IMG/VR virus record: IMGVR_UViG_3300025769_000251
Location: 1 to 42,361 of that record
Source: a virus
Strand: one strand, 5' to 3'
DNA length: 42,361 bases
In this document: in pieces, positions 3,342 through 42,361 of the stretch
Layout: every line of letters starts with the position of its first letter
How positions within the stretch are numbered: the first letter of the stretch is position 1
Notes under the pieces: model-generated
What the model saw: only the letters and a program-made list of their open reading frames with translations
Databases searched by the model: none
Told to the model about the DNA's origin: nothing
Made by a program: the position numbers and the translations under genes

Positions 3342-3923
3342 ATGGCAATAACTAACGAAGAAGGAAATTTATCGAATAGTCCCCGCGTGACTATGACTCG
3401 TCCCTATTCGGATTTTGATTTAACGTTTAACGCTAGAACAACAACTGATGGAGACGTGTTTAAAAAAACTGATGCAGCTTCTGTTAAACAAGCGTTAAAG
3501 TCTTTGTTATTAACTAATGCTTTTGAGAAACCTTATAGACCTCAGTATGGAGGGAACTTAAGTGGGTTATTATTTGAACCTGCTGATGAAAATACGGGAG
3601 AAGAATTAAGTTCACGTATAAAGGACGCTATTAATAGGTATGAACCAAGGGTTAAAATACTTAACCTAAAAATTGTTTCGCAACCAAATTTGAACAAAAT
3701 AAAGATTTTGTTGGAGTTTCGTGTTATCTCTACGGGTATAGTAGATGTTCTACAACTCGTATTGGGAGCGGTTGAAGTATGTGATCCACCTTACTTAAAG
3801 GCACCTCCGACTACAGCTTTTATAGAAGATTATATTCTGACAGAAAGTTTATTAGTAATTCGAACCGAATCTGGTTTAAATTTAATCTTTGATGATGATG
3901 AAGATCTATACGAAGACGACTAA
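3342..3923 (+). CDS. 25: Baseplate wedge protein gp25
   Basis: The 193-residue product contains the gp25/GPW family core: LLLTNAFEKPYRPQYGGNL, then an LLFEPAD segment, an amphipathic helix and the EPRVKI segment, leading to a beta strand with ILLEFRV (about residues 55-130). In T4, gp25 is the sheath-like wedge protein that nucleates sheath assembly. This version is longer than T4 gp25 (132 residues). It has about 30 extra N-terminal residues and a C-terminal tail ending in a very acidic stretch (FDDDEDLYEDD). It is the first gene after a late promoter and is followed 18 bases later by gp6, so the two wedge genes are probably co-expressed. Confidence 0.9.
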   Translation: MAITNEEGNLSNSPRVTMTRPYSDFDLTFNARTTTDGDVFKKTDAASVKQALKSLLLTNAFEKPYRPQYGGNLSGLLFEPADENTGEELSSRIKDAINRYEPRVKILNLKIVSQPNLNKIKILLEFRVISTGIVDVLQLVLGAVEVCDPPYLKAPPTTAFIEDYILTESLLVIRTESGLNLIFDDDEDLYEDD

Positions 3924-3941
3924 CATACAGGAAAAGATACG

Positions 3942-15905: not shown

Positions 15906-17431
15906 TGGCCGATTTTATAGCATATAGTGATTACACGACACCGGAATCAGAATCCTACACCGGAGATGGTGGCACTTCTTATCTAGCTACTTATTCTAGC
16001 GTGTTTGATGACCCAACTCCAGCTTCTGAATCCTACACCGGAGATGGTGGCACTTCTTATCTAGCTACTTATTCTAGCGTGTTTGATACTCCAACTCCTG
16101 TTTCAGAGTCTTATATTGGAGATGGTGGCACTTCTTATCTAGCTACTTATTCTAGCGTGTTTGATGACCCAACTCCAGCTTCTGAATCCTACACCGGAGA
16201 TGGTGGCATTTCTTATCTAGCTACTTATTCTAGCGTGTTTGATGACCCAACTCCAGCTTCTGAATCCTACACCGGAGATGGTGGCACTTCTTTCGCAGAA
16301 AATTATGATGGGGAATATTTAAATTATACTGCGCCAGACGGAGTAGAGTATGTTGGTGATGGTGGTGCCCCCTATCTAGCATCATATGATGGAGTATATG
16401 AAGGATACACTGCGGCCGGACCTTTTGATTATATTGGCGCTGATTACGAAAATGCATACGATGTTACATATGTTGCAACATATTCAGATTATACAGATCC
16501 AGTTACAGAAAATTACACAGGAACGGATTATGTAAATCCATTTGATACTGATTACTTAAGCACTTATAGTGACTATACAACTCCGGAGTTTGAATCTTAC
16601 AGTGACTACACAACCCCAGAAATAGAAGGTTACATTGGTGCCGATTATTCAGACCCATATGATACTGATTACTTAAGCACTTATAATGATTATACAACGC
16701 CAGAGTTTGAATCTTACAGTGACTATACAACACCAGAATTAGAAGATTACGTTGGTGCTGACTATTCAGACCCATATGATACTGATTACTTAAGCACTTA
16801 TAATGATTATACAACGCCAGAGTTTGAGTCCTATGTAGGTGTTGGTGGGTATACTGGTTTTGATGGTACGTTTGACACGCCTAGGTTTGAAACATATGAT
16901 GGTGTTTATACGGGAGTTGTTTTTGAAGCGTATTCACACGATTACGAAGGTGATTATACACAATCTTTTGATGACTATGAAACGGGCGTTTACATTGGTA
17001 CCTATGACGCAACATATACTGGCGAATATCAAGGGACATATAACACAACATATATCGGTGAATACACTCCAACTTTCAATTCAGAATATGAGGGGGAATA
17101 TGAAACAGCTTATGAAGTTCTTTACGAAACAGAATATGGTGTAGAATATGAAGGTAACTACGTTGTAGAATATGAAGGTAGTTATGATAGGGATGCATAT
17201 ACTGCAGAATATGAAACTGAGTACAATGCTGAAATATATGAAACTGAATATAGCGTCTCTTATGATGGTGATATATACTTAGGTGATTATGTTGGTGATG
17301 ATCCTTATCAAGAGTACACAACTTCGTACATTTTTGATTATACCACTGAAGAAATATTTGGCAGTAACTATGAAATTTCTCCACCAATTGTTCAAGTAGA
17401 GACTTGGACATTATATGTGAGAATTGCTTAA
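15905..17431 (+). CDS. Second tyrosine/acid-rich tandem-repeat protein
   Basis: The 508-residue product starts at ATG 15905, whose first base is the last base of the previous TAA; an in-frame TTG at 15884 is rejected because it lies inside the previous gene. It is almost entirely repeat: five copies of a 26-residue unit around SYTGDGGTSYLATYSSVFD (about residues 16-130); then a 39-residue unit built from DTDYLSTYNDYTTPEFESY (about 212-312); then a Tyr-every-fourth-residue tract (YIGTYDATYTGEYQGTYNTTY, then EYETEYNAEIYETEYSVSYD, about 365-475). It closes with a short non-repetitive C-terminus ending WTLYVRIA. It is strongly acidic. It shares composition and the YxGxY style with the preceding gene, so both probably belong to one fibre system. 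No homologue with known function is recognised. Confidence 0.7.
   Translation: MADFIAYSDYTTPESESYTGDGGTSYLATYSSVFDDPTPASESYTGDGGTSYLATYSSVFDTPTPVSESYIGDGGTSYLATYSSVFDDPTPASESYTGDGGISYLATYSSVFDDPTPASESYTGDGGTSFAENYDGEYLNYTAPDGVEYVGDGGAPYLASYDGVYEGYTAAGPFDYIGADYENAYDVTYVATYSDYTDPVTENYTGTDYVNPFDTDYLSTYSDYTTPEFESYSDYTTPEIEGYIGADYSDPYDTDYLSTYNDYTTPEFESYSDYTTPELEDYVGADYSDPYDTDYLSTYNDYTTPEFESYVGVGGYTGFDGTFDTPRFETYDGVYTGVVFEAYSHDYEGDYTQSFDDYETGVYIGTYDATYTGEYQGTYNTTYIGEYTPTFNSEYEGEYETAYEVLYETEYGVEYEGNYVVEYEGSYDRDAYTAEYETEYNAEIYETEYSVSYDGDIYLGDYVGDDPYQEYTTSYIFDYTTEEIFGSNYEISPPIVQVETWTLYVRIA
15950..16291 (+). repeat. 78-bp in-frame tandem repeat, five copies (last partial)
   Basis: Units begin at 15950, 16028, 16106, 16184 and 16262, exactly 78 bases (26 codons) apart. 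Most copies are near-identical at base level. The third start has drifted (GAGTCTTATATTGGAG) and the fifth breaks off after the TSF codons. Confidence 0.95.
16540..16834 (+). repeat. 117-bp in-frame tandem repeat, about two and a half copies
   Basis: The GATACTGATTACTTAAGCAC core recurs at 16546, 16663 and 16780, 117 bases apart. Each unit encodes DTDYLSTY followed by two SDYTTPE-type segments and a GADYSDPY linker. Confidence 0.9.
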
Positions 17432-20921: not shown

Positions 20922-23900
20922 ATGGCAACACGGAAAAAAATACTATTACCTAGAAGTGACATACCTAATAGGGCCCCCACAATAAACGAAATTGATTTCG
21001 GTGAAATTGCAATCAATACTCATGATGGGCGAGCATTTATTAAACGTGAAGCCAACGGTGAAGTATCAATACAATCTATCGGTTCCGAAGAAGTAGAAAA
21101 TGTATATTATGTTTCTAAGTCAGGATCATATGGAAACGATGGTCGATCGCTTTTAAATTCTTTTAAAACCCTTGATTCTGCGGTAGCTACAGTTCTTACT
21201 AAACAGGGGTTTAAGTTTAATGAAAAGGTTTGTGAGAGAGACCTAAACTTAATCATGGACGCTGTGCGTTATGACATGATTCTATCTACTAATTACAATT
21301 CGGTAACTGCTGGTCTTGCATATAAACGTGGTAACGCTATTAAAGTAACCACTGATCAAAAATATCAAACTAGACGTGCAATCAATGAGGAAAGGGTCGG
21401 AATGATTTCTGCGCCCGAGGTTGTAAACAGTTCTATTGCAACGGAAAGAATAGTTGCTGGGTTTGATGACATCATAGGTATTTTTTATGATGAAACTCCC
21501 GACGATTTATATTTTACAGATCCACCCGTAGAAGTGCAAACAGATGCAAACGCTGCGGCCGCCGCCATACAAGCTAATAGGTCTGCAATTCAGGATGCAG
21601 TAATTGATTATATTAATACAGGTATTATTAGTGGTTATGATGAAGCGAAATGTTCACGAGATGTTGGACTCATTCTTGATGCAGTTTCCCGTGATTTGTT
21701 ATTAGGAACAGAATACAATACTATTACTGCCGGTAACGCTTATCTTCGTGCAAACTCAGCGTATGTTTTAAGCAATCAAAACGAAGCAACCATTGCGGGA
21801 ATAAACTTCGCGAGAGACTATATCACTGCGTTACCTGATGTCACGTCTGACACAGACATAGACAACTTATTCCTTAACGTAACAAATGTTATCGACGGAA
21901 CTGTAACAACTTATCCTGCGATTAGTTACCCTACTACTGCTGGATCTACTTATCAAACCAGTGATCGAATTTCTGCAGCTACAGCATTACAAACAAATCG
22001 TCAAACCCTTATTGATGAGACAACAGAGTATATTAACGAAAACTACACTGGTATTGGTGCGACCTGTGAACGGGATCTTGGGTTTATTCTTGATGCTGTC
22101 CGTAGAGATTTGTTGTTAGGTACAGACTACAATACTATTACTGCCGGTAACGCTTATCTTCGTGCAAACTCAGCATATGTTCTTTCAGATCAAAGCGCGG
22201 TTACAGTTGCATTGGTTAACTATGCAAGAGATCTTGTTAAAGCATTACCCGAAATTAACAGTACTGCATTAATAGACACTTTGTTTGCAAGAGTTACTCA
22301 AGTTTTAGACGGAACTATTACAACAGTTCAACCAGTAACTACTTATGCTGGTAATGGTACATATGCAACATCAAATTTAAGGTTGGCACAATCACTGGAT
22401 TTACAAACTAATCGAGCCACTTTAATTTCTAGTGTTACTAGTTTTATTTCTAGCAATTACCCTGCTCTTGTTTATGATACTGTAGCATGTGAAAGAGATA
22501 CAGGATTTCTTATTGATGCTGTTTCGCACGATCTTTTGTATGATGGGAACACTGCGTCAAGAACGGCTGCGTTGGCATATTTTGTTGGAACCAATTCTCA
22601 ATTGGGTGTTGGCGAAGAGACGGCTACCGTTGCTGCATATGCGCATCTCACGTCTGAAATTCAAGCTTTAACGAACGTTACGGAAGATGCTAGGGTCGCG
22701 ACTTTAATCGATATAACAAGGGACGCAATTACCGCAGGAAATGTTTCTAGTGTTCCCGCTGAAATAGAAGTTTCAACTCTAGGTTTATCTACAACAGAAT
22801 ATGATAACATACTAGCTGAATCTAACACCATTATTTCAAACACAATTGAATATGGAAGAGACAACTATTCTTTTTATGATCAGGATACTTGTGAAAGAGA
22901 TGTCGGTTATATTATAGATGGGTTATCACACGATGTTAAGTATGGTGGTAATACGGCAACAAGAACCAATGCGTTAGCATATTTCGTCGGCGCAACTTCT
23001 CAATTGGGCCCTGACGAAGGCGTTGCAACAGTAGCCGCATACAATGATTTAAAAACAAGAATAAATGTTGTGGTTACTACTGTTCCAGAACAGACGGTTA
23101 TAGGAAGTTTAATTGATGAAATCACCGGAGTTATTACCGCTGGTGATACTGCAGGACTTTCAGCTGAAGTAGAAATAGAAACTGGCGGGTTGACAACAAC
23201 TGAGTTTGATGCAATACAAGCTGCAGTCTCGGATGCGCAAAGTGCAACTATAACGTACATAAACGAAAATTTCTCATCTGCACTTAGTGGTTATGATGCG
23301 GCTAAATGTGCACGAGATGTTGGTCTCATTCTTGATGCTGTAAGAAGAGATCTCATGATTGGATCTGACCACTGGACTGTGACTGCAGGAAACGCTTATC
23401 TTAGAACCAACTCTGCATACGTTTTGAGTAACCAAAGTGTTGCAACTATCCAAGCAGTAGAGTTTGCAAGGGATGAAATCAAAGCATTAACTGACGTAAC
23501 AAATGATGCCACTGTTGATACGTTATTTGAAAAAATAATTGATGTGTTAGACGGAACTTTCACAACACCACAGTCAGTTACGTCTTTACCTGAAAATGGA
23601 ACATATGCCCAGACTCCGTCACGATCTACGCAAACTTCTGACATAGTTTCAAACAGAGCAACATTAATTAGTGGTGTTACATCGTTTATCAATTTGAACT
23701 ATGGTAGTTTTAGTTACGATCAAGCTGCATGTGAAAGAGACACAGGTTTTATAATCGACGCCTTAGTTGCAGATTTATATTATGGTGGTAATACTGCCAG
23801 TAGACAAGCAGCACTTGCATATTTTGTTGGTACAAATAGTCAATTGGGTTCCGGAGAAGAACTTGTAACAATTGCCGCATACAACGATTTAGCTACAAAC

Positions 23901-26900
23901 ATCAAAGCATTAACCAATGTTTTTGAAGATTCAAGAGTTGATGAATTAATAGGTTTAATTACTGAAGTAATATCTTCAGCTTCCGTTGATGGACTTGCGG
24001 ACGAAGTAGAAGTTAGTACTGTAGGATTATCAACAACAGAGTTTGATGCTATAAAAAACAATACGTTGAGTATTCAAAACGGGGTAATTGATTTTGTCAA
24101 TGATATGAACCCAGTTAATAATTTCGATGATGAAAAATGTTTTCGTGACACGGGGTTAATTATTGATGCTCTTGCGGTCGACCTACAGAACAATACTAAT
24201 TACAATAGCACCACTGCTGGACTTGCATACCGTAGAGCTAATGCACAAAAAGTTCAAAGTGACCAGTTGTCATACACAGTTGATTCAATCAATTATTTAC
24301 GAGATCAAATTAATGCTTCAGGAATAAATGATGAAAGTCAAACATTTATTACTGCTAGGATTAAAGAAATCACAGATCTTCTAACCGAATCTACCGAATA
24401 TGGTGCGTATGATGGTGATCCTATTTTCTTTACTGGATCTGGTTCTGAAAATGCAGACAAACGAAATGCTGCAAACGCACTGATTGTTAATCGAAGAACT
24501 ATTCAAAAACAAGTTATTTCTTGGCTTCAGGTTAACTACGATACTTTAGAATACAACCAAGAAAAATGTGAAAGAGACGTTGGTTATATTGTTGATGCGT
24601 TAACTCATGATATTTTATTCGATGGCCAGTTTGGTACAGACACTAATGCTCGGTCTTATTGGGTTGGGGTAGATCTTAACATTGAAAACACGACCACCGC
24701 AGCTGAAAGTTTAGATGGTATTCCGGACATTTGGACCAATCAGTTGGGTGTTGGTGAGGTCGCAGCATCTTCAGCTGCATATGAACAATTAAAAACGATC
24801 ATAAATCAATATATTATCACTACTACAGAAGAAACTAGAGTTTCTACTTTAATAGACGTTATTAAATCATCTATAAATGCAGCTGATGGTTCTGGAATCA
24901 CCACCACTTTGCCAACTATTACAGGTGAGAGTAATCTTTTTTATGTCAACAGAAACACTCTCCAAGAACAAGTGGTCTTTTATGCAAACACCATATTCCC
25001 CGTTTTTTCTTACGATCAAACCAAATGTCGAAGAGATGTTGGTTATATTCTAGATGGACTAACATACGATCTTAAATATGGTGGCAACAGTGCAACGTAT
25101 ACAAATCAGAGATCATATTTTTCTGTTTTCTCAAATGGATATGGTGATCTTTTAGGACAAAATGAAATCACCGCAACGATTGCGGCATACGGCGAATTAA
25201 AATCTATTATCGGAACATATATTTCAGGTCTAGATGCAGGCAACCTAACTAAAGTTCAAACATTATTAGATATCATTATTAATTCAATTCAACAATCTTC
25301 GGTTGGCACTTACCAACTTGGTGATTTTTTTGATGGAGATCAAATATACCAGTATAATATTCCTACGGGTTCTTCTCCTTTGCAGTTTCCGAACTTGATC
25401 ACCCTTGGTTACAAAGTTTTGTTTAATGAGTTATATTTAGCACATCAAATATTCGATGACTCCAAATCGCAACGATTGACTATCATAAGATCTTCAAACG
25501 CTGTAGCAAAAAACCAAGGCACAGATACCACAATATATTTAAAATCCGGTGATTATGTAATTAACAACCCGATTAAATTGCCACCCAAAACTTCAATTAT
25601 TGGCGATGCTTTGCGTTCGACAACAATTCGTCCAAAAAATGTAGATTCAGATATTTTTTGGGCAGATAATGGTGTATATATTAAAGAGATTACTTTCCGA
25701 GATCATCAAAACGGCGCGGCTGTATTATCTTTTGATCCAAGAGTAGACTCGCCGGGTGCTGGACCTTTCATCACACAGTCACCTTATGTACAAAACTGCA
25801 CATCATTAACATCATCAGGCATTGGTCTTAGAATTGATGGATCCAAAGTATCAGGTCTTAGATCAATGGTACTCGACGCATTCACCCAGTTTAATGCTGG
25901 GGGGATCGGTGTTCATCTTTTGAATCGTGGTTATGCTCAGTTGGTATCATTATTTACGGTATCAACGACAACATCTGTTTTAGCTGAAACTGGTGGACAA
26001 TGTTCTCTTACCAACTCAAACTCTTCGTTTGGTGAAAGAGGTCTTGTTGCAACTGGTGGCAGTCCATCTTTATATAATGGTTCTCTTCATGCAAATTATG
26101 TCCAAAACGACAATGTGATTCGCGTCAACAGCATTGTTACTCAAGATGCTGCGGATTATACTCTAAACATTGGTGACTATAAAAAACCAAATTATAATGA
26201 CGCTATTAAATTTGACTCAGATAACTATTACTACACTATTCTAGATGTCTCCGACGAAATAACCAAAGATTGGACCGCAACAGGAAATTCACAAGAATCT
26301 GAAATAGTTGCTCAGGCAAAAAACCTTGATGCAAAATATGGTAATAGTGTTAGTATTAGTTCCGACGATAATTACTTAGTACAATCATCTAGAGACGGTA
26401 TTATCAATCTAGGTGGTGATGTAGAAATTAAAAAGAGAGACATTGTTGGTGGAGTTCCACAATGGGATTATCAACAAACTCTTGTTCCGGTGCCAACTTT
26501 TGGTACTGCGACAGCGGATTTTGATTTTGGTACAAAAGTAATATTAAATGAAAACGGGTCATATCTTGCAGTCAGTGCGCCTGGACAACAGAATGTTGAT
26601 GGTGCAAGTGGTGCTACGCAAAATAATGGCGCAATATACACTTATCGCAGAACTAATGAAACTTGGACACAGGATGCTGTCATATCATTACCGGAAGTAT
26701 CAGACCGTTCTAGATTTTTTAGTCGTTCTTTTGATATGTCAGAAAACGGATTGTGGATTGCATCTTCAACGGCAAATGATCTTACAGCTGGTGGCCAAGG
26801 CGCATGTTACATTTACAATAGAACGGCTCCAGAATCATCCACATGGACTCAGACACAAAGGATTACTATACCTGATGGTGTTGGTGCTAGTGTACAAGAA

Positions 26901-28211
26901 CCGGAAGTAACAATTAACGAAGATGGTACTGACTTGTTGATAATGTGGAAAGGACAACTCAACAAAGTCTACTACTATCAAAGGAACATTGATAATATAT
27001 TCATTTTAGCACAGATTGTTGTACCGAGATCTAATTTTAGTGGAACCAGAGATAGTAAAATTAAACTAGCACAAAACACCACTCATTTTGTAATGGGCGA
27101 CCAAAACTCACCTAGAGGTTATTTCACTAATACTTCAACTGATAGTGACCAAGGTGCATCTTTCCAATATGCGAAAAAACAAAAACTGAATAATGTTGTG
27201 ATATCCAATTCACCACCTAGAATTACAACCTCGGATACTGATCGGTGGATAAATTTTGAAACAGATTTTCCAATAAACACTACAGTTGAAATTGTTGGCG
27301 CTGACACAAATGACGGGACTTATACTATTGCTGGTAGAACGGCCAACACAATAGATTTTGTTGAAGTTTTTCCTACGCCGGGAACATTTACCGATGTACA
27401 AATTTATTTGAATGGATCGGGCGTTTCTGAATTCTTTGTATTCGATGAAGGCCAGTGGATAACTGAAGATATCATTGAAGCACCATATAACACTCCTGCA
27501 TCGTTCGGGTACGGATTTGATGTCGATATTAACACTCGTGGTGATTTATCAACCGTAGGAAATAACCCAAGTAACAGTAATATTTCTAACGAAGTTTCTG
27601 TTATTGAACGCGCTCGCAGTGATTGGAGAAGGGTTACTCGGTTAGAACCCCAAACACCCACAGATGCTGCAACTATAGGCAATGATGGATATGGTGGTGC
27701 AGGACACTCAACCACAGTCGGAGGTTCTGGAGACTACATCGTAATTGGCGCAAGGGATCGTAGAGAAGACTTGGTTGATGCAAACACAAAATACGGTGCG
27801 GTTTTTACATATTATTCTATCCTAGATGAAACTGGATCTTATGAAATTACTGTTGCGCCTGCATTAAATGTCAATATGAAATCATTACAAAACGTAAGTT
27901 TTCATCAAAGATCATTAATTACTGCATCGGGTCATACTTTCGAGTATGTGGGATCTGGAACTAATATGTTTACAGCGATTCCACAAAACGGGGGTGTTCC
28001 GAAAAAAGAAAACGAAATACAATTTGATTCAGCAGAATCAAGTCAACCCAATTTTGGTCTTGTATATTTCACTGCAACAGATGAAAGGGGAGACTTTAGA
28101 ATTGGAGAAGATTTAACTATTAACAGAGAAGAAGGTAATATTACTGGTATAACATTCGATAGATCGTTATTTGCAGTATTGACGCCGTTCATATTAGCAC
28201 TAGAGGGATAA
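20922..28211 (+). CDS. Giant fibre/adhesin: Cys-x-x-Asp repeats, beta-helix and embedded beta-propeller
   Basis: The 2429-residue product starts with RSDIPNRAPTINEIDFGEIA, a phage fibre attachment motif. VYYVSKSGSYGNDG (about 60-75) starts a parallel-beta-helix element. Residues about 103-1400 hold ten repeats of about 120-150 residues headed by C-x-R-D-x-G-x-I-x-D (for example CERDVGYIIDGLSHDVKYGG). A beta-helix follows (SGDYVINNPIKLPPKTSIIG, about 1543-1562, to about 1726). Residues about 1780-2310 look like an FG-GAP-type beta-propeller (FGTKVILNENGSYLAVSAPG, GAIYTYRR, YIVIGARD), interrupted near 2085-2165 by an Ig-like insert. The C-terminal 120 residues, ending SLFAVLTPFILALEG, resemble the end of other marine phage fibres. 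It is probably a side or long tail fibre. It ends one base before the next ATG. Confidence 0.75.
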   Translation: MATRKKILLPRSDIPNRAPTINEIDFGEIAINTHDGRAFIKREANGEVSIQSIGSEEVENVYYVSKSGSYGNDGRSLLNSFKTLDSAVATVLTKQGFKFNEKVCERDLNLIMDAVRYDMILSTNYNSVTAGLAYKRGNAIKVTTDQKYQTRRAINEERVGMISAPEVVNSSIATERIVAGFDDIIGIFYDETPDDLYFTDPPVEVQTDANAAAAAIQANRSAIQDAVIDYINTGIISGYDEAKCSRDVGLILDAVSRDLLLGTEYNTITAGNAYLRANSAYVLSNQNEATIAGINFARDYITALPDVTSDTDIDNLFLNVTNVIDGTVTTYPAISYPTTAGSTYQTSDRISAATALQTNRQTLIDETTEYINENYTGIGATCERDLGFILDAVRRDLLLGTDYNTITAGNAYLRANSAYVLSDQSAVTVALVNYARDLVKALPEINSTALIDTLFARVTQVLDGTITTVQPVTTYAGNGTYATSNLRLAQSLDLQTNRATLISSVTSFISSNYPALVYDTVACERDTGFLIDAVSHDLLYDGNTASRTAALAYFVGTNSQLGVGEETATVAAYAHLTSEIQALTNVTEDARVATLIDITRDAITAGNVSSVPAEIEVSTLGLSTTEYDNILAESNTIISNTIEYGRDNYSFYDQDTCERDVGYIIDGLSHDVKYGGNTATRTNALAYFVGATSQLGPDEGVATVAAYNDLKTRINVVVTTVPEQTVIGSLIDEITGVITAGDTAGLSAEVEIETGGLTTTEFDAIQAAVSDAQSATITYINENFSSALSGYDAAKCARDVGLILDAVRRDLMIGSDHWTVTAGNAYLRTNSAYVLSNQSVATIQAVEFARDEIKALTDVTNDATVDTLFEKIIDVLDGTFTTPQSVTSLPENGTYAQTPSRSTQTSDIVSNRATLISGVTSFINLNYGSFSYDQAACERDTGFIIDALVADLYYGGNTASRQAALAYFVGTNSQLGSGEELVTIAAYNDLATNIKALTNVFEDSRVDELIGLITEVISSASVDGLADEVEVSTVGLSTTEFDAIKNNTLSIQNGVIDFVNDMNPVNNFDDEKCFRDTGLIIDALAVDLQNNTNYNSTTAGLAYRRANAQKVQSDQLSYTVDSINYLRDQINASGINDESQTFITARIKEITDLLTESTEYGAYDGDPIFFTGSGSENADKRNAANALIVNRRTIQKQVISWLQVNYDTLEYNQEKCERDVGYIVDALTHDILFDGQFGTDTNARSYWVGVDLNIENTTTAAESLDGIPDIWTNQLGVGEVAASSAAYEQLKTIINQYIITTTEETRVSTLIDVIKSSINAADGSGITTTLPTITGESNLFYVNRNTLQEQVVFYANTIFPVFSYDQTKCRRDVGYILDGLTYDLKYGGNSATYTNQRSYFSVFSNGYGDLLGQNEITATIAAYGELKSIIGTYISGLDAGNLTKVQTLLDIIINSIQQSSVGTYQLGDFFDGDQIYQYNIPTGSSPLQFPNLITLGYKVLFNELYLAHQIFDDSKSQRLTIIRSSNAVAKNQGTDTTIYLKSGDYVINNPIKLPPKTSIIGDALRSTTIRPKNVDSDIFWADNGVYIKEITFRDHQNGAAVLSFDPRVDSPGAGPFITQSPYVQNCTSLTSSGIGLRIDGSKVSGLRSMVLDAFTQFNAGGIGVHLLNRGYAQLVSLFTVSTTTSVLAETGGQCSLTNSNSSFGERGLVATGGSPSLYNGSLHANYVQNDNVIRVNSIVTQDAADYTLNIGDYKKPNYNDAIKFDSDNYYYTILDVSDEITKDWTATGNSQESEIVAQAKNLDAKYGNSVSISSDDNYLVQSSRDGIINLGGDVEIKKRDIVGGVPQWDYQQTLVPVPTFGTATADFDFGTKVILNENGSYLAVSAPGQQNVDGASGATQNNGAIYTYRRTNETWTQDAVISLPEVSDRSRFFSRSFDMSENGLWIASSTANDLTAGGQGACYIYNRTAPESSTWTQTQRITIPDGVGASVQEPEVTINEDGTDLLIMWKGQLNKVYYYQRNIDNIFILAQIVVPRSNFSGTRDSKIKLAQNTTHFVMGDQNSPRGYFTNTSTDSDQGASFQYAKKQKLNNVVISNSPPRITTSDTDRWINFETDFPINTTVEIVGADTNDGTYTIAGRTANTIDFVEVFPTPGTFTDVQIYLNGSGVSEFFVFDEGQWITEDIIEAPYNTPASFGYGFDVDINTRGDLSTVGNNPSNSNISNEVSVIERARSDWRRVTRLEPQTPTDAATIGNDGYGGAGHSTTVGGSGDYIVIGARDRREDLVDANTKYGAVFTYYSILDETGSYEITVAPALNVNMKSLQNVSFHQRSLITASGHTFEYVGSGTNMFTAIPQNGGVPKKENEIQFDSAESSQPNFGLVYFTATDERGDFRIGEDLTINREEGNITGITFDRSLFAVLTPFILALEG
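21229..25120 (+). repeat. Ten degenerate repeats headed by Cys-x-x-Asp-x-x-x-(I/L)-(I/L/M/V)-D
   Basis: Heads lie near 21230, 21650, 22065, 22485, 22890, 23305, 23730, 24135, 24565 and 25025, about 420 bases apart. Two subtypes alternate irregularly: one with NAYLRxNSAYVL and one with ALAYFVGxxSQLG. A 47-base stretch is identical in repeats two and three (21714-21760 and 22128-22174). Confidence 0.85.
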
Positions 28212-30433: not shown

Positions 30434-31945
30434 ATGGCAAATGTTTATACAGTTACCACTACAAATTTAGTTTCTGGAACAGGAACTTTATATTGGACAA
30501 TTGATGGTAATACATCCGATTTTGTGGAGGTTAGTGGCACCATAGAAATTGTTCAGAATACGGGAACGTTTGAAATCACAGCATTGGCTGACAATGCCGC
30601 CGAAGGTCCCGAAGCTTATACGATTAGTCTTAGAACAGGTTCTATAACTGGACCTGTTGTAGAAACTTACTCATTAACGGTTCTTGACACTTCTGCGCCT
30701 GAACCTACATATGATTTAACCGGACCTGCCACCATTGACGAAGATGGTCTTAATAATACTTACACCGTTACTACTACTAATTTTCCAGACAATAATTTAT
30801 ACTGGACTATTAACGGTACGGTTGCTGATTTTGCCGTTATTAGTGGTACGGTCCCAATTGTTTCCGGTTCAGGAACTTTTGATATTTCTGCTTTGGAAGA
30901 CAGTATTACTGAAGGTGATGAAAACTTTACAATCAGTTTAAGAGAAGGTTCCATTAATGGGGCTGTTGTTGATACATTAGGCATCACGGTTATTGATACT
31001 TCTCTCAACGCTCCTACGTACAATTTAACCGGACCAATTACAATTAACGAAGATGGTCTTAACAACACTTATACAATTACCACAACTTTTGTTCCAGATA
31101 CAACTGTACTTTACTGGACTATTAATGGTACTACTGCTGACTTTACTGCCATCAATGGATCATCAGTAATTACATCTAACTCAGGCACATTCGATATTTC
31201 CGCCATTGTTGATGCGTTAACAGAAGGCGATGAAATCTATACGATCAGTTTAAGAACCGATTCAATTTCTGGTACAGTAGTAGACACCCTAGAAATTACT
31301 GTTATCGACACTTCGTTAGATGTGGCATATGATTTGACTGGTCCTACTACTATAGAAGAAACTGGTTTACCGAATACTTATACAATCACAACAACTTCTG
31401 TTCCTGACGCTACAACGCTTTACTGGACCATTAATGGTACTACTGCTGACTTTACGGCTATTAATGGATCATCAGTAATTACATCTAGTTCCGGAACCTT
31501 TGATCTTACTGCTATAGCTGACAATTTGACAGAAGGCGATGAAATCTATACGATCAGTTTAAGAACCGATTCAATTTCTGGTACAGTGGTAGACACTCTA
31601 GAAATTACTGTCACCGATACTTCGTTAAGCCCACCAACCTATGATTTAACTGGGCCTATTAGTATCAACGAAACTGATTTACCAAATACTTATACAATCA
31701 CAACAACTTCTGTTCCTGACGCTACAACGCTTTATTGGACTATTAATGGTACTACTGCTGACTTTACTGCCATCAATGGATCATCAGTAATTACATCTAA
31801 CTCAGGCACATTCGATATTACCGCCATTGCAGATGAATTGCTTGAAGGTAGTGAAAACTACACGATTAGTTTGAGAACAGATTCCATCTCGGGAACCGTA
31901 GTTGATACTTTAGATATTACAGTCAACGACACGTCGATTCCGTCG
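30434..31945 (+). repeat. Five Calx-beta-like domain repeats (about 306 bp each)
   Basis: Domains begin about 30434 (its first strand lies in the upstream gene), 30701, 31007, 31319 and 31628. The last three share long near-identical stretches such as the codons for [18 protein letters not shown], indicating recent duplication. Confidence 0.85.
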
Positions 31946-34900
31946 ATCTTCTACCCATTGACTGGTGAAGCAGAATCTATCTTGAACGCTACGTGGATTT
32001 CCAATTACGCTCCAGCGAGTTATCGATTTGATACAACGCCTGGAGCTGAAGGTATTAGGGTTGATATAGGAGACCCTATTACTAATATGAATCAGATGTT
32101 CAAAGATAAAAATACATTCAACAATGCGGATATTGGTTCTTGGGATGTAAGTACTGTTACTAATATGCTTAATATGTTTGATGGGGCAGAAGCGTTCAAT
32201 CAAGACATCGGTTCTTGGGATGTAAGTAATGTCACACGTATGGATTTTATGTTCAACATATTTAGTGGTACATCTACTTTCAATCAAGACATTAGTGGTT
32301 GGAATACAAGCAGTGTCACACGCATGGATGCTATGTTCAAAAATGCAACAGTATTCAATCAAGACATTAGTTCTTGGGATACATCTAGTGTTACTAATAT
32401 GAATTTTATGTTCGATAATGCTGCAGCATTTGATCAAAACCTGAATGCTTGGGATGTATCATTAATACCGTCACTACCCGAAGGCTTCGATACTAACACG
32501 CCATTATTCACGGTTGACGAACATCCTTTTTGGGGTACTGATGGTACAGGCATCTTGTATCCATTAACCAACACTGCAACAGATCCTACCAGCACAACAT
32601 GGCGTACCAATTATGGTACTGCAGCAGGATACCAGTTCATTCCTAATGTTGGTATCTTAATGCCAGCAGGAACACCTATTACTGATATGCTAGAGATGTT
32701 CTATGGAAATGCTACGTTTAATGATCCCGATATATCTGTTTGGGACACGTCTAGTGTTACTACTATGCAAAGTATGTTCACCAATGCCTCATCATTCAAT
32801 CAAGATATTAGTTCTTGGGATGTGAGTAGTGTTACCAATATGAGTAGTATGTTCTTTCAAGCTTATGCATTCAATAATGGAGGTGTAGCATTAAACGGCA
32901 CCTTTGCTAGTACTATGACTAGTGTTCTTAATATGAATAATATGTTTAGAAATGTTGACGCATTCAATGCAGACATTAGTTCTTGGGATGTGAGTAGTGT
33001 TACCAATATGAGTAATATGTTACAGGACGCCAATGTATTCAATCAAAATATTGGTTCTTGGGATGTGAGTTCTGTTACCAATATGGCTTATATGTTTGAA
33101 GGTGCTGATCTATTCAATCAAGATATTGGTTCTTGGGATGTGAGTTCTGTTACCAGTATGAATTATATGTTCCAAAATGCCTTTGTGTTTGATCAAGACA
33201 TTAGTGGATGGAATGTGTTGAATGCTAGTGTTGCACCAGGCAATCCAACTCCACCAACAAACTTTGATCTCAATACACCCGTCACTTGGATAACAGCAGA
33301 GAAACCACAATGGGGTACAGACGGTTCCATCTTCTATCCATTAACGGGTGAAGTAGAAACAGTTCTTAGTTCAACTTGGAGAACGGCTAACTCTGGTAAT
33401 TACACTTGGGATGCAACTCCTGGCGCAGAAGGCATTCGAACTCCTACTACGCAACCCATTACTGATATGACTTCTATGTTTGAAGGTTCCAGCACGTTTA
33501 GCAACTCTGATGTTGCTGCTTGGGATGTAAGCACTGTTACCAATATGAGCAGTATGTTCAAAGATGCATCTAGATTTGGTAGTGAACCTGGACTACTTTA
33601 CACGTTAAATAATCCTAATGCTTATGGTACAAGTCAAGATGATTTTTTTGGAAACTCAGTAGCAACGTCAGGTACATATTCTATCGTAGGTGCTTATGCT
33701 GAAGATGATGCTGGTGGTAATACTTCAGGTAAAGCTTATATCTACAACAATGTCACTGGTGCTTTGTTACACACATTAGATAATCCTACTGCTTATGGTA
33801 CTAGTGCAGGTGATTATTTTGGTTGGTCAGTAGCAATATCAGACACCTATGCTATTGTAGGTGCTTATGCTGAAGATGATGCTGGTGGTGATGGTTCAGG
33901 TAAAGCTTATATTTACAACAATGCCACTGGTGCTTTGTTACACACCTTAAATAATCCTACTGCTTATGGTACAAGTGTAGGTGATTTCTTTGGACACTCA
34001 GTAGCAATATCTGACACATATGCTATTGTAAGCGCTCGTAATGAAGGTGATGCTGGTGGTACTCAATCAGGTAAAGCTTATATCTTTGATAACGCCACTG
34101 GTGCTTTGTTACACACATTAAATAATCCTAATCCTTATGGTACAAGTGTTTTTGATCAGTTTGGAGAGTCAGTAGGAATAACTGATACCTATGCTATTGT
34201 AGGTGCTGTTTATGAAGATGATGCTGGTGGTACTGAATCAGGTAAAGCTTATATTTACAACACAGTCACTGGTGCATTACTTCACACTTTAAATAATCCT
34301 AATGCTTATGGTACAAGTCAAGATGATCTTTTTGGAAACTCAGTAGCAATATCTGATACATATGCTATTGTAGGTGCTAAGACTGAAGATGATGCTGGTG
34401 GTACTAATTCAGGTAAAGCTTATATCTTTAACACAGCCACTGGTGCTTTACTACACACATTAGATAATCCTAATGCTTATGATACAAGTCTGAATGATAA
34501 TTTTGGAACCTCAGTAGCAATAACTGATACCTATGCTATCGTAGGTGCTCGTCAAGAAGATGAAGCTGGTGGTAATACTGGTTCAGGTAAAGCTTATATC
34601 TTCAACACAGCCACTGGTGCTTTACTGCACACCTTAGACAATCCTAATGCTTATGATACAAGTCTGAGTGATCTTTTTGGAACCTCAGTAGCAATATCTG
34701 ATACCTATGCTATCGTAGGTGCTAATAGAGAAGATGATGCTGGTGGTACTGATTCAGGTAAAGCTTATATCTTCGATTTAACTGCACCCTCTTCTTCGTG
34801 GAGTATATCTAATTGGGACACTAGTTCTGTCACCAATATGTCTTCTATGTTCCAAAACGCCTCCGTGTTTGATCAAGATCTTAACACATGGGTGACAACT

Positions 34901-37900
34901 TCTGTCACCAACATGCAAAGTATGTTTGATGGTGCAACAGCATACAACAATAGCATAGGCCAACTAGCTCATACCTTAGACAATCCTAATGCTTATGATA
35001 CAAGTGCAGGTGATCTTTTTGGAGTATCAGTAGCAACATCAGGCACTTATGCTATCGTAGGTGCTTATGATGAAGATGATGCTGGTGGTGTTAGTGCAGG
35101 TAAAGCTTATATCTTTAACACAGTCACTGGTGCTTTGTTACATACATTAGACAATCCTACTGCTTATTTTACAAGTGGGGCTGATACTTTTGGATCGTCA
35201 GTAGCAATATCTGACACTTATGCTATCGTAGGTGCTCAGCAAGAAGATGATGCTGGTGGTGGTAATTCAGGTAAAGCTTATATCTTTGATAACGCCACTG
35301 GTGCTTTACTACACACCTTAGATAATCCTAATGCTTATGGTACAAGTGCAGGTGATAACTTTGGAGCGGCAGTAGCAATATCTGACACTTATGCTATCGT
35401 AGGTGCCCGTGGTGAAGGTGATGCTGGTGGTACTGATTCAGGTAAAGCTTATATCTTCAATACAGTCACTGGTGCTTTGTTACACACATTAGATAATCCT
35501 AATGCTTATGGTACAAGTGCCGATGATTTTTTTGGAGTCAAAGTAGCAATATCAGATACCTATTCTATTGTAGGTGCTCAGAATGAAGATGATGCTGGTG
35601 GTACTGATTCAGGTAAAGCTTATATCTACAACAATGCTACTGGTGCTTTAGTACATACTTTAAATAATCCTAATGCTTATGATACAAGTGCGAGTGATTA
35701 TTTTGGAAACTCAGTAGCAATAACTGATACTTATGCTATCGTAGGTGCTCGTTTAGAAGATGATGCTGGTGGTACTGGTTCAGGTAAAGCTTATATCTTC
35801 AATACAGCCACTGGTGCTTTGTTACATACTTTAGATAATCCTAATGCTTATGATACAAGTGTTGATGATAGGTTTGGAGACTCAGTAGCAATAACTGATA
35901 ACTATGCTATTGTGGGTGTTCGTTTAGAAGATGATGCTGGTGGTGATAGTTCAGGTAAAGCTTATATCTTTGATAACGCCACAGGTGCTTTACTTTATAC
36001 TTTAGACAATCCTAATGCCTATGGTACAAGCTTTACTGATAACTTTGGATACTCAGTAGCAATATCTGACACCTATGCTATCGTAGGTGCTTATATTGAA
36101 GATGATGCTGGTGGTGATAGTTCAGGTAAAGCTTATATCTACAATTTAAATGGTATATCCGGTTGGGACACTGGTGCTGTTACTAACATGAATTCTATGT
36201 TCAAGGATGCCTCAGCATTTGATCAAAACCTAAATGTTTGGGATGTATCATTAATACCGTCATACCCAACAGACTTTGATACTAACACGCCATTATTCAC
36301 GGTTGACGAACATCCTGTCTGGGGCACTGACGGTACATACACACTATATCCATTGAGCAATACAACTAACGACCCCACCAGTGCTACATGGCGAACTAAT
36401 TACGCTCCTAATTATGTGTGGGTAGATAATGTGGGTCTTTATACTGATGGTCCTATAACAAATGCGGCCAATATGTTTCAAAACAATGCAACGTTCAATG
36501 ATCCAGACATATCCACGTGGGATGTGAGTGCCGTGGATGGAGGCTCACCATTTGGATTTACCAACATGTTCGCAGATTGTACTTCTTTTAATCAAGACTT
36601 ATCTGCTTGGGATACAAGTAACGCTGGATCAATGGCGGGTATGTTCTCCGGCAGCGCCTTTAACCAAGACATTAGTTCTTGGAATGTAAGTAATGTTAGA
36701 AGTTTCTTAGCAATGTTCCAAAACGCAACCGCATTCAATAACGGTGGAGTTGCACTCACTTGGTCTACCTTCGCTAGTAGTAATATAACCATGATTAGTA
36801 TGTTTAGAAATTGTCCTTTCAATCAGGATATTTCAACATTTGACATGAGTGGTGTTACTGATATGCAATATATGTTCTTTGATAATTCCGCGTTCAATCA
36901 GGACATTAGTGGTTGGGATGTAAGTGGAGTAACTAATCCTAATAATATGAGGTATGTTTTCAAAAACGCTACAGCATTTGATCAAAATTTGAATGCTTGG
37001 GATGTTTCGACCATACCTTCATTACCACTAGATTTTGAAACTAACACGCCATTATTTGACGTTGCTGAACATCCTATCTGGGGTACTGATGGTACTATCT
37101 TGTATCCATTAACGGGCGAAGCAGAATCTATTTTGGATCCCACATGGATTTCTACTTACGCTCCAACCAGTTATGTTTGGGATGCAACACCAGGCGCTGA
37201 AGGTATTCGTGTAAAAGCGAATGATCCTATTACAAACATGGAAAGAATGTTCCTTAATGGTGGTTCGCCTGGCGATGGTGGAGTTAGTAGTACATTTAAT
37301 AATTCTGATGTTTCATCTTGGGATGTCAGCACTGTTACTAATATGAAAAATATGTTTCGTTATTGCCCATCTTTTAACCAACCATTGGATTCGTGGGATG
37401 TGAGTAATGTTACTAATATGGAGGCTATGTTCCAGATTCAACTGACGGTCGGATCGTTCAACCAACCATTGAATTCATGGAATGTAAGTAATGTTACTGT
37501 TATGAATGGTATGTTTTACAATCAGTCTGCATTCAATGGAAACATTAGTTCTTGGAATGTGGGTAATGTTACTGATATGAATAATATGTTCAATGGCACC
37601 GCATTCAATCAAGATATTGGTTCTTGGAATGTCTCTAATGTTACAACCATGAGCAATATGTTTAATAATGCTTCAACATTCAATCAAGATATCGGTTCTT
37701 GGGATGTGAGTAGTGTTACTAATATGGTAGCTATGTTCGCCAATGCTTCATCATTCGATCAAGACATTAGTTCTTGGAACGTGTTGGCGGCTAGTGTTGC
37801 TCCAGGCGATCCAACTCCACCAACAAACTTTGATCTCAACACTAATGCCAGTTGGACAGCAGCAGAGAAACCTCTTTGGGGTACTGATGGTACAGGCATC

Positions 37901-40900
37901 TTGTATCCATTAACCAATACAGCTACAGATCCTACCAACACAACATGGCGCACCAATTATGGCACTGCAGCTGGATACTCGTTTATTCCAAACGTTGGTA
38001 TTCTAATGCCAGCAGGAACTCCACTAACAAGCATGTACTGGATGTTCAAATCAAATACTACGTTTAATGATCCTGATATTTCAACGTGGGATGTGAGTAC
38101 TGTTACAAACATGGTGGAAACGTTCAGCGGCGCGACATCCTTTAATCAACCTTTAAGTTCTTGGAACGTAAGCAATGTCACCGACATGACAGCATTGTTC
38201 CAAAATGCAGATGTATTTAACCAAGACATTAGTTCTTGGAATGTGTCTAATGTCACCAGTATGGATAGTATTTTTAATTTTGCTATTGCTTATAATAATG
38301 GTGGTGCAACATTTTTAGGTAGTACTTTTTCTAGTACAATAAGCAATGTTACAAATATGTTCAAATTTTTTAGGTATGCTGGTGTTTTCAATCAAGACAT
38401 ATCTGACTGGAACACTAGTTCTGTTACAAACATGAATCAGATGTTTGATAATGCTACAGCGTTTGATCAAAACTTGAATGCTTGGAACGTTACTAACATA
38501 CCGTCACTACCATCAGGCTTCGATACTAACACGCCATTATTCACTACTGACGAACATCCTTTTTGGGGTACGTCAGGTGGTATCTTATATCCGTTAAGCA
38601 ACACGGCTACAGATCCTACCAGCACACTTTGGCGTACCAACTATGGTACTGCAGCTGGATATTCGTTTTCTGCAAACGTTGGTATCTTAATGCCAGCAGG
38701 ATCACCTATTACTAATATGCAACAGATGTTCGCTGGAAATGCATCCTTTAATGATCCTGATATTGCAACATGGGACGTTAGTACTGTTACGAGCATGGGG
38801 AGTACGTTTAGTGGTGCAACCTCATTCAATCAAGACATTAGTTCTTGGGATATGACTAACGTCACTTTTGCAACAAATATGTTTTATAACGCCACAAATT
38901 TCAACCAAGATATTAGTGGTTGGAATGTAAGCAATGTTAATAGTTTCAGTAATATGTTTTATGGTGCTTCATCATTCAACCAACCAATTGGTATTTGGAA
39001 CATAACTGGCGCTAACAGTTTGGCAAGTATGTTCTTCGGCGCTACCGCATTCAATCACGATATTAGTTCTTGGAATACATCTAGTATTACTAATATGTAC
39101 GAAGTTTTCAGAAACGCAACCTCATTCAACAATGGCATAGGTCAAGTAGCTCGTACTTTAGATAATCCTAATCCTTATGGTACAAGTCAAAATGATAATT
39201 TTGGATACTCAGTAGCAACATCAGGTACATATTCTATTGTAGGTGCTTATCAAGAAGATGATGTTGGTGTTACTAATTCAGGTAAAGCTTATATTTACAA
39301 CAATGCCACTGGTGCTTTAGTACATACTTTAGATAATCCTAATGCTTATGATACGAGTCAAGGTGATTCTTTTGGAACCGCAGTAGCAATATCAAATACC
39401 TATGCTATCGTAGGTGCTTATCAAGAAGATGATGCTGGTGGTGTTAGTTCAGGTAAAGTTTATATCTTCAACAATGCCACTGGTGCTTTAGTACATACTT
39501 TAGATAATCCTAATGCTTATGATACAAGTCAAAGTGATCTTTTTGGATACTCAGTAGCAATATCTGACACCTATGCTATCGTAAGTGCCGTTGGTGAAGA
39601 TGATGCTGGTGGTACTGCTTCAGGTAAAGCTTATATTTACAACACTGTCACTGGTGCTTTACTCCACACATTAGATAATCCTAATGCTTATGATACAAGT
39701 TTGAATGATAACTTTGGAAACGCAGTAGCAATATCAGGTACTTATGCTATCGTAGGTGCTTATCAAGAAGATGAACCTAGTGGTCCACTAGGTAGTGGTA
39801 CTAATTCAGGTAAAGCTTATATTTACAACAATGCTACTGGTGCTTTGGTACACACCTTAGACAATCCTAACGATTATGGTCCAGCTGGAGGTGATAATTT
39901 TGGAATATCAGTAGCAATATCAGATAACTATGCTATTGTAGGTGCTTATTGGGAAACTTATTCTGGTGGTACTACTTCAGGTAAAGCTTATATCTTCAAC
40001 ACAGTCAGTGGTGCTTTACTCCATACCTTAGATAATCCTAATGCTTATGGTACTAGTGCGGGTGATTATTTTGGAATATCAGTAGCAATATCTGATACAT
40101 ATGTTATTGTAGGTGCTAATCGAGAAGATGATGCTGGTGGTACTGAAGCAGGTAAAGCATACATCTACAACAATGCCACTGGTGCTTTAGTACATACTTT
40201 AGATAATCCTAATGCTTATGATGCAAGCAATGGTGATTATTTTGGACAATCAGTAGCAATAACTGATACTTATGCTATTGTAGGTGCTCCTTATGAAGAT
40301 GATGCTAGTGGTGGTGGTTCAGGTAAAGCTTATATTTACAGTCTAAATGACATATCCGGTTGGGATACTGGTGCTGTTACTAATATGCAAAGTATGTTCA
40401 ATGGTGCTTCATCATTTGATCAAAACCTAAATGCTTGGGATGTATCATTAATACCGTCATACCCAACAGACTTTGATACTAACACGCCATTATTCACGGT
40501 TGACGAACATCCTGTCTGGGGCACTGCTGGCGGTATCTTGTACCCGTTAAGCAATACCGCAACAGATCCTACCAGTAGTGATTGGCGTACCAACTATGGT
40601 ACAGCTGCTGGATATCAGTTCAGTGCAAACGTTGGTATTTTAATGCCAGCAGGAACACCATTAGCTGATATGCAAAGCATGTTTTACGGTAACGCCACAT
40701 TTAATGATCCTGACATCTCATCTTGGGATGTAAGCACTGTTACCAATATGACCCAAGCGTTTCGTGATGCAGTTGCATTTAACCAAGACATTAGTTCTTG
40801 GGACACATCTAGTGTTACTGATATGAGTAGTATGTTCAACGGAGCTAGCATATTTAACCAACCGATCGGTTCTTGGGATGTGAGTAATGTTACTAGTTTG

Positions 40901-42361
40901 AGTAATATGTTCAACACTGCTACTGCATTTGATCAAGATCTTAGTGGTTGGGATGTCAGTCTCAATTCCAATCTAAATTATGTTTTTACACAATCTTCAT
41001 TTAACAATGGGGGTGTTGCAACACTACCTTGGAATACTTCTAGTGTTATTTCCGCGGCCGGTACTTTTTCAGGCAATTCGTCGTTCACCGCAGACATTAG
41101 TTCTTGGGATATGAGCAATGTTACTAATATGAGTGAAATGTTCTACAATGCTAGAATTTTCAATCAAGACATCGGTTCTTGGAATGTAAGTAGTGTTACT
41201 GATATGTCTTCTATGTTCCGTGATGCTAGTTTATTTGCCAGTGAGGCTGGACTAGTTCATACATTAGATAATCCTAATCCTTATGGTACAAGTGAAAGTG
41301 ATCTTTTTGGAACCTCAGTAGCAACATCAGGCACATATTCTATCGTCGGTGCTTATCAAGAAGGTGATGCTGGTGGTACTCAATCAGGTAAAGCTTATAT
41401 CTACAACAATGCCACTGGTGCTTTAGTACATACATTGAATAATCCTAATGCTTATAGTACAAGTGCAAGTGATCAGTTTGGAGAGTCAGTAGCAATATCT
41501 GATACATATGCTATTGTAGGTGCTAAGAGTGAAGGTCAACCTAGTGGTACTCAATCAGGTAAAGCTTATATCTTCAACAATGCCACTGGTGCTTTAGTAC
41601 ATACTTTAGATAATCCTAATGCTTATTCGACACCTACCTTGGATCTATTTGGACAATCAGTAGCAATATCTGATACATATGCTATTGTAGGAGCTCCACG
41701 TGAAGATGAACTAGAGTCATCACCAGGAGCGGCTGACGGCACTGAATCAGGTAAAGTTTATATCTTCAACACAGCCACTGGTTCTTTAGTGAGAACATTG
41801 AGTAATCCTAACCCTTATGGTACTAAATTAAATGATTATTTTGGACAATCAGTAGCAATATCAGATAACTATGCTATCGTAGGTGTCCGTAATGAAGATG
41901 ATGCTGGTGGTACTGAATCAGGTAAAGCTTATATCTACAACCCAGCCACTGGTGCTTTACTCCATACCTTAGATAATCCTAATGCTTATGGTACAAGTGC
42001 AGGTGATAATTTTGGATACTCAGTAGCAATAACAGATACCTATGCTATCGTAGGTGCTCGTTATGAAGATGATGCTGGTGGTACTGATTCAGGTAAAGCA
42101 TATATCTACAACACAGTCACTGGTGCTTTACTACACACATTAGGTAATCCTAATGCTTATGATACAAGTGCAAGTGATAATTTTGGACACTCAGTAGCAA
42201 TATCTGATACCTATGCTATTGTAAGTGCTTTTTTTGAGGATGATGCTGGTGGTAATCAATCAGGTAAAGCTTATATCTTTGATATTGCAACTGGTTCATT
42301 ACTTTATACTTTAGACAATCCTAATGCTTATGATACAAGTGTTAATGATTATTTTGGTTGG
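30434..42361 (+). CDS. Giant modular adhesin: Calx-beta-like domains, BspA-type repeats and seven-bladed propellers (3' partial)
   Basis: The frame stays open from ATG 30434 to the window end, at least 3976 residues. Residues 1 to about 503 are five Calx-beta-like domains (core [19 protein letters not shown]). From about residue 506 come 25-residue BspA/DUF285-type repeats ([20 protein letters not shown]), arranged in modules that start with a YPL cap ([20 protein letters not shown]) and often end in [17 protein letters not shown]. Four blocks of FG-GAP-like blades ([16 protein letters not shown], then SGKAYI) interrupt the solenoid; the three complete ones have seven blades each. All parts are known as extracellular adhesive or protein-binding folds, so a giant receptor-binding fibre is likely. 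No enzyme domain, signal peptide or membrane helix is seen. Repeats this close to identical make mis-assembly possible. The true C-terminus lies outside the window. Confidence 0.85.
31949..33592 (+). repeat. BspA/DUF285-type solenoid, block A
   Basis: Repeats of 25 residues with [17 protein letters not shown]-x-x-M-F. YPL caps lie near 31952, 32560 and 33335. The block is interrupted at 33593 by propeller 1. Confidence 0.9.
33593..34780 (+). repeat. Beta-propeller 1: seven FG-GAP-like blades, 171-bp period
   Basis: Seven SGKAYI motifs occur between about 33730 and 34770. Each blade is about 57 residues: [11 protein letters not shown], then [16 protein letters not shown], an acidic EDDAGG loop and SGKAYIYN. 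The first blade has the variant [13 protein letters not shown]. Confidence 0.9.
34781..34963 (+). repeat. BspA-type spacer between propellers 1 and 2
   Basis: Only about two BspA repeats ([17 protein letters not shown] and [14 protein letters not shown]) separate the two propellers, so they would sit side by side on the solenoid. Confidence 0.85.
34964..36151 (+). repeat. Beta-propeller 2: seven FG-GAP-like blades
   Basis: Seven blades with GKAYI motifs between about 35100 and 36140. The total length is 1188 bp, identical to propeller 1. The first blade reads [13 protein letters not shown]. Confidence 0.9.
36152..39145 (+). repeat. BspA/DUF285-type solenoid, block B (longest)
   Basis: About 1000 residues of 25-residue BspA repeats divided by YPL caps near 36345, 37095, 37905 and 38590. 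Three of its four modules repeat the closing FDTNTPLF-type segment; the one closing near 37830 uses a FDLNTNASW variant instead. Confidence 0.9.
39146..40351 (+). repeat. Beta-propeller 3: seven FG-GAP-like blades
   Basis: Seven blades, 1206 bp in total. The fourth blade carries a short extra loop ([13 protein letters not shown]) that accounts for most of the added length. The first blade again reads [13 protein letters not shown]. Confidence 0.9.
40352..41251 (+). repeat. BspA/DUF285-type solenoid, block C
   Basis: One partial module and one full module with a YPL cap near 40542 and about nine repeats. The block is left at 41252 by propeller 4. Confidence 0.9.
41252..42361 (+). repeat. Beta-propeller 4: six complete blades and the start of a seventh
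   Basis: Six SGK(A/V)YI motifs are visible, and a seventh blade begins [15 protein letters not shown] before the window ends. The first blade carries the [13 protein letters not shown] signature. Blade three has a longer acidic loop ([17 protein letters not shown]). Confidence 0.85.

Follow-up and report, generated by a model that had tools for sequence, protein, structure and literature searches.

The subject of this analysis is a giant protein encoded at the end of a viral DNA record, in which two repeat folds are combined in an unusual manner. The DNA analysed, henceforth the window, is the whole of the linear virus record IMGVR_UViG_3300025769_000251, comprising 42,361 bases, and the gene in question is an open reading frame (ORF) of at least 3976 amino acids (aa) on its plus strand. 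Two families which a sequence-only reading of this DNA had named, DUF285 and FG-GAP, were both found in the product by Pfam above their gathering cut-offs, DUF285 in 18 stretches with 1304 bits (cut-off 25) and FG-GAP_2 in 27 stretches with 860.7 bits (cut-off 23). The former would build a solenoid of leucine-rich repeats (LRRs), the latter forms blocks of propeller blades lying between solenoid repeats.

The giant gene and its building blocks

The sequence-only reading had described the solenoid as a long array of 25-residue BspA/DUF285 repeats. The family assignment stands, but the single array resolves into eight separately capped modules (M1-M8) of about 200-270 aa each when ring-free, which begin with the motif '(I/F)LYPL(S/T)...' and end with '...DEHPxWGT' or '...EKPxWGT'. 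Module M3 carries two propeller rings with two solenoid repeats between them, while M7 and M8 carry one ring each. Residues 1-504 consist of Calx-beta-like repeats, not DUF285, and show a tandem period of 312 bp at 31067-31936. In the following list Ig denotes immunoglobulin, HMM hidden Markov model and nt nucleotide.

30434..42361, + strand: giant adhesin ORF, at least 3976 aa, no stop codon, 3' end open at the contig end
30434..31945, + strand: N-terminal region, about five 104-aa Calx-beta/Ig-like repeats (Pfam Calx-beta, 36.3 bits)
31946..32551, + strand: DUF285 module M1, ring-free
32552..33328, + strand: DUF285 module M2, ring-free
33329..36343, + strand: DUF285 module M3, with two nested propellers (P1, P2)
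33590..34777, + strand: propeller P1, seven FG-GAP blades, 396 aa = 1188 bp (TLxNP motif, Pfam, HMM envelope; 28 strands in AlphaFold2)
34958..36145, + strand: propeller P2, seven FG-GAP blades, 396 aa = 1188 bp (TLxNP motif, Pfam, HMM envelope; 28 strands in AlphaFold2)
36344..37096, + strand: DUF285 module M4, ring-free (syntenic with L088:2473-3222, 77.5% nt identity)
37097..37897, + strand: DUF285 module M5, ring-free (94.1% nt identity to L088; 99.2% to L019 over 666 bp)
37898..38581, + strand: DUF285 module M6, ring-free (94.1% nt identity to L088)
38582..40534, + strand: DUF285 module M7, with one nested propeller (P3)
39140..40342, + strand: propeller P3, seven FG-GAP blades (Pfam, HMM; 28 strands in AlphaFold2; Foldseek integrin alpha, E=2.3e-17)
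40535..42361, + strand: DUF285 module M8, bearing P4, cut at the contig end
41249..42361, + strand: propeller P4, six full blades and the beginning of a seventh, truncated where the contig ends (TLxNP motif, HMM)

With blade starts anchored on the TLxNP motif and block envelopes drawn by the HMM profile, 28 blade starts fall into four blocks of seven (aa 1057-1400, 1514-1856, 2908-3255 and 3610-3959) at a spacing of 57 aa, extended by small insertions to 58, 62 or 64. What the sequence-only reading had claimed of these blocks is borne out, namely that they are built of 57-residue FG-GAP-like blades, that the three complete ones have exactly seven, that two are of identical length (P1 and P2), and that the fourth is cut within its seventh blade, which stops about 18-23 residues in. 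The last block of the homologues in two further records, L012 and L019, both of which reach a stop codon, has seven blades and is followed by two to three DUF285 repeats, a tip of about 200 aa and the stop. Since L019 is close kin of the window, as judged by the 99.2% identity within M5, these complete last blocks lend indirect support to a seventh full blade in the fourth block of the window.

It is unlikely that the blade counts are an assembly artefact. The longest exact repeat inside the giant gene is 92 bp and the blades, which are about 80% identical to each other in DNA and partly homogenised, reach at most about 91%, so that collapse would not be expected at typical read lengths; moreover, the hybrid architecture was assembled in three separate records (L011, L012 and L019). 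Duplication of whole blocks as the origin of the four was also considered and rejected, because no block signal is seen among the blades (p=0.11) and the signal for position within a block (p=0.0004) hinges on blade 1, which has a signature of its own and without which significance is lost (p=0.08).

Blade number and the predicted ring

The question then is whether seven is a property of this protein or of the blade itself. All viral contigs retrieved by four scans were searched with the blade profile, and the nonredundant, complete arrays were taken as the survey set, those with a mean blade score above 75 bits being counted as well conserved. Multiples of seven account for 53 of the 58 well-conserved arrays (42 with seven blades, seven with 14 and four with 21), the remainder having 1, 4, 5, 6 and 13 blades, one each. 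More odd counts appear when the score threshold is lowered; some of these reflect divergent blades missed by the profile, as in L025, where five and two blades are split by a 38-aa loop, and the counts of 16 and 9 in L075 and L076 include surplus matches from a divergent neighbouring ring. A few well-conserved arrays nevertheless deviate, with four (L200), five (L192) or six (L072) blades or with six plus seven (L050), and L049 has a single blade. The first four look either real or like assembly losses, and could be genuinely short rings, arrays collapsed in assembly, or rings in which a second chain supplies the missing blades; three of these four finish at the stop codon of their ORF. Because its query had seven blades, the first scan may have caught too few short arrays, but scans with queries of 50-60 aa, which are without this bias, added 23 nonredundant complete groups, of which nine have seven blades and four have 14, the rest including weak or partial matches. 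The rule of seven blades is strong but has exceptions and is not peculiar to this protein, and the earlier claim that the array always stops at seven holds to that extent and fails for L072, L192, L200, L050 and L049. Rings also occur in long tandems: at L038:9008-20790 and L026:7131-15011 there are runs of consecutive genes whose products each contain two or three seven-bladed rings (14 or 21 blades) joined by short linkers, without a DUF285 rod.

An AlphaFold2 model of M7, computed with 55 aligned sequences, has a mean predicted local distance difference test score (pLDDT) of 83.8 and a predicted template modelling score (pTM) of 0.73. The solenoid part, with good pLDDT, shows short strands at regular spacing, as would suit the LRR solenoid proposed (a sequence search found no solved relative of DUF285), and the propeller part has 28 strands in the order D' + 6x(ABCD) + ABC. 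One strand, six groups of four and a group of three imply a velcro closure, the first strand (D') completing the last blade. Both rings of M3 share the 28-strand pattern in a model with a mean pLDDT of 78.8. In Foldseek the best solved matches of M7 are integrin alpha headpieces (E 2.3e-17; template modelling score up to 0.66 when normalised by single-propeller targets) and its viral ones are FG-GAP proteins from giant viruses and from cyanophage S-TIM5, while M3 matches tandem double propellers and integrins. A search for solved propellers at the sequence level, using the propeller profile, returned only weak WD-repeat matches. Each block is thus predicted to fold as a closed seven-bladed ring of the velcro type, in agreement with the integrin-type closure that the sequence-only reading had proposed.

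Could the numbers nonetheless be a by-product of slippage, recombination or assembly in repetitive DNA, with no selection for closed rings? The partial homogenisation of the blades and the few arrays of four, five, six or six plus seven are what such a process might leave behind. Yet it would have to account for the clustering of arrays at 7, 14 and 21, for the shortness of the longest exact repeat, for a predicted strand order at the block ends that matches a velcro closure, and for the individual signature of blade 1, and we regard it as very improbable. The clustering and the predicted rings instead favour the earlier argument for selection on closed propellers over random expansion; seven blades would be kept because only a complete ring folds.

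Nesting of rings in the solenoid

The insertion register is equal at all junctions. A solenoid repeat breaks off a few residues after about 'MFxxAxxF' and leads through a short linker to strand D', with which the ring opens; once the ring has ended with its final strand C, the solenoid continues in the next repeat as 'ISGWDTG' or 'ISNWDTS'. The nature of this nesting is best seen in a sibling that lacks the rings. The contig IMGVR_UViG_3300044723_003027 (L088/L101) represents the same locus as L019 by downstream gene order, the successive products being of 629, 253, 298, 428 and 535 aa in the former and of 630, 253, 298, 428 and 535 aa in the latter. Its giant protein, of at least 4020 aa, is built of DUF285 repeats all along, has no propeller and terminates in a laminin-G-like domain. 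M4, M5 and M6 recur in L088 in the same order (with the identities listed above), and the terminal part of M3 shares 88% identity with that of the L088 module preceding these three. When the flanks of P3 are joined, their alignment to the L088 repeats spans the junction with a single 9-nt gap. This continuity across the junction, together with the ring-free sibling, implies that each ring is a discrete unit inserted between one solenoid repeat and the next, and that siblings have gained or lost such units.

Other parts of the gene also appear to be exchanged. Between L019:1-880 and window 37226-38108 the near-identity of M5 drops to 79% in the next module, a sharp change that suggests recombination inside the gene, and the C-terminal tips differ among siblings, being laminin-G-like in L088 and another domain in L019 and L012. 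Looser combinations of the two folds were also encountered: in L102 a partial, divergent ring is flanked by DUF285 stretches, and in L107/L108 and L153 the two lie side by side in one protein.

Variable face, tail context and meaning

The blades of the window differ from each other mostly in alignment columns 17, 18, 20, 23, 37, 38 and 54 (the last being profile position 46), where the ratio of non-synonymous to synonymous differences (pN/pS) is 1.59 as against 0.42 in the other 48 columns. In 43 viral propeller proteins of other contigs the same columns, together with profile column 45, stand out on average. There, the fraction of comparisons in which codon positions 1 and 2 differ is 0.64 in the variable columns and 0.23 in the others, compared with 0.41 at four-fold silent sites, and the variable columns exceed the silent sites in 41 of the 43. 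Set against the predicted strands, the eight variable columns fall within or next to the D-A and B-C loops, whereas conservation is seen in the A-B and C-D hairpins. In a propeller, the D-A and B-C loops are on the same face, which in integrin alpha chains, according to textbook knowledge of these proteins, is the ligand face. Since the ring would have both its ends between strands C and D, opposite the face of the variable loops, the solenoid should hold the ring from below with its variable face outward. A diversity-generating retroelement was rejected as the source of this variation, as the variable codons are not adenine-biased, all codon positions vary and the 28 copies are dispersed; a reverse transcriptase did not come to notice in the window, although no search aimed at one was made.

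Variation of this kind bears on another view of the rings, in which they have the structural task of spacing or stiffening a long fibre and only the C-terminal tip binds. Such a role would fit the differing tips of the siblings, as in tip adhesins, and the existence of a sibling that keeps the rod and has no rings. However, a spacer has no need of variation that sits on one face and tops silent variation while the C-D and A-B hairpins are the parts conserved, and we consider this role unlikely.

The gene lies inside a T4-like tail module, as judged by its upstream neighbours in the window and its downstream neighbours in L019. Upstream are baseplate components (baseplate wedge, gp25-like, gp6-like and others), a 2429-aa tail-fibre protein, a short tail fibre and a fibre-assembly-like gene, the closest annotated relatives of the gp6 homologue being those of phage C48C1 (39%) and pelagiphage HTVC008M (35%). 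Downstream are an S8-peptidase-like fibre protein, a head-tail adaptor, a head closure protein, a tail sheath stabiliser and a baseplate/fibre connector. Proteins with DUF285/BspA or FG-GAP repeats are common on cell surfaces, and the giant protein might therefore be a cell-surface or secreted product made during infection and not part of the virion. Its position between baseplate/tail-fibre genes and, in siblings, neck/tail-sheath genes, and the annotation of the FG-GAP relative in cyanophage S-TIM5 as a virion structural protein, make this quite improbable.

Several neighbours deserve mention in their own right. The 629-630 aa protein directly 3' of the giant gene in siblings (L019:4956-6848, L012:2776-4668, L101:12063-13952) has, in its L019 copy, matches to Peptidase_S8 and to the tail-fibre PHROG phrog_15006, and a protease in this place could process the adhesin. 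The gp15-like tail sheath stabiliser at L019:8543-9829 bears a C-terminal Big_9 Ig-like domain. Two adjacent ORFs of 1019 and 515 aa at window 14592-16827, which have no PHROG match, contain repeats in tandem with units of 93, 69, 78 and 117 bp and likely encode further fibre-like proteins with unstable repeat numbers. A weak Pfam match to Phycobilisome in the 2429-aa tail-fibre protein (window 20922-28211; 24.7 bits, cut-off 22.2) is probably due to chance.

The sequence-only reading had called the architecture unlike any known. Rings of FG-GAP_2 blades, mostly seven per ring, are in fact widespread in marine phages and giant viruses (S-TIM5, C48C1, prasinovirus and mimivirus-like proteins), and the IMG/VR members tested have hypervariable columns as in the window, yet there the rings are mostly stand-alone or in tandem, not nested in DUF285 modules. 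Giant DUF285 proteins likewise occur in phages (PMC7765460). Those of Vibrio phage pir03, Aeromonas phage D3 and Synechococcus phage ACG-2014f share the long arrays of 25-residue LRRs, but are only about 30-40% identical to the window and are not among the isolate FG-GAP matches. In isolate phages, DUF285 was matched in 110 records and the propeller-block query in nine, two of these through DUF285, and none was found with rings nested in DUF285 modules. L088/L101, while sharing the locus, the downstream genes and the ordered M4-M6 homologues, differs in having no propeller and a laminin-G-like C-terminus. The integrin alpha propeller is alike in fold by Foldseek, in its seven blades and in the FG-GAP motif, but the window rings are only about 15-19% identical to it, their blades are nearly identical to each other and they are set in an LRR rod; because the A-B hairpins, inspected by eye across the 28 blades, show no calcium loops of the DxDxDG type, we do not file them as integrin. 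A bacterial origin of the nested architecture was rejected, there being no DUF285-propeller hybrid in the best 80 junction matches from 84,980 genomes; L244 and L265 resembled junction-spanning hybrids but contain no blades. In the literature searched we found no paper joining DUF285 with FG-GAP, nor FG-GAP with propeller, phage and tail fiber. The domains are thus known, as is the class, a phage tail adhesin by context, and it is the nested arrangement between solenoid repeats that is new.

Taken together, these observations make it probable that the protein is a giant modular receptor-binding adhesin of a marine T4-like phage, in which an LRR rod with nested seven-bladed rings presents diversified faces. 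In mechanistic terms, a rod of capped BspA/DUF285 modules would carry closed FG-GAP propellers as domain insertions between successive repeats and grip each by its bottom face, and, because the outward face holds all the hypervariable columns, the rings would most likely bind host surface structures. Specificity could then change by substitutions in the loops and by gain, loss or swap of rings, LRR modules and C-terminal tips through recombination. Several points weigh against this reading. The virion location and the ligand are deduced, the tail and fibre roles following here from the gene neighbourhood alone; the window's own protein breaks off at the contig end before its C-terminus; the short arrays described above exist; ring closure is read from strand order and Foldseek matches rather than from inspected model coordinates; the two-ring model of M3 has a pTM of only 0.57, so that it does not establish the ring-to-ring geometry; and, the variable columns being in loops, part of their excess could be due to relaxed constraint and homogenised silent sites.

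More tentatively, the rod may be a display system with standard insertion points for rings, each with a face on which diversifying selection acts at some 56 hypervariable positions (8 in each of seven blades), and the rings a natural exchangeable binder scaffold of many marine viruses, a possibility we put somewhat below even. What the giant protein of the window does bring together, in one phage product, is two repeat folds each familiar from cell-surface and viral proteins, and its 'empty' sibling shows the ring to be a discrete module. If the hypervariable columns are indeed the binding face, they would constitute a readable host-recognition code for a large group of marine virus proteins now mostly filed as unknown, and the rings that bear them a testable natural binder scaffold.

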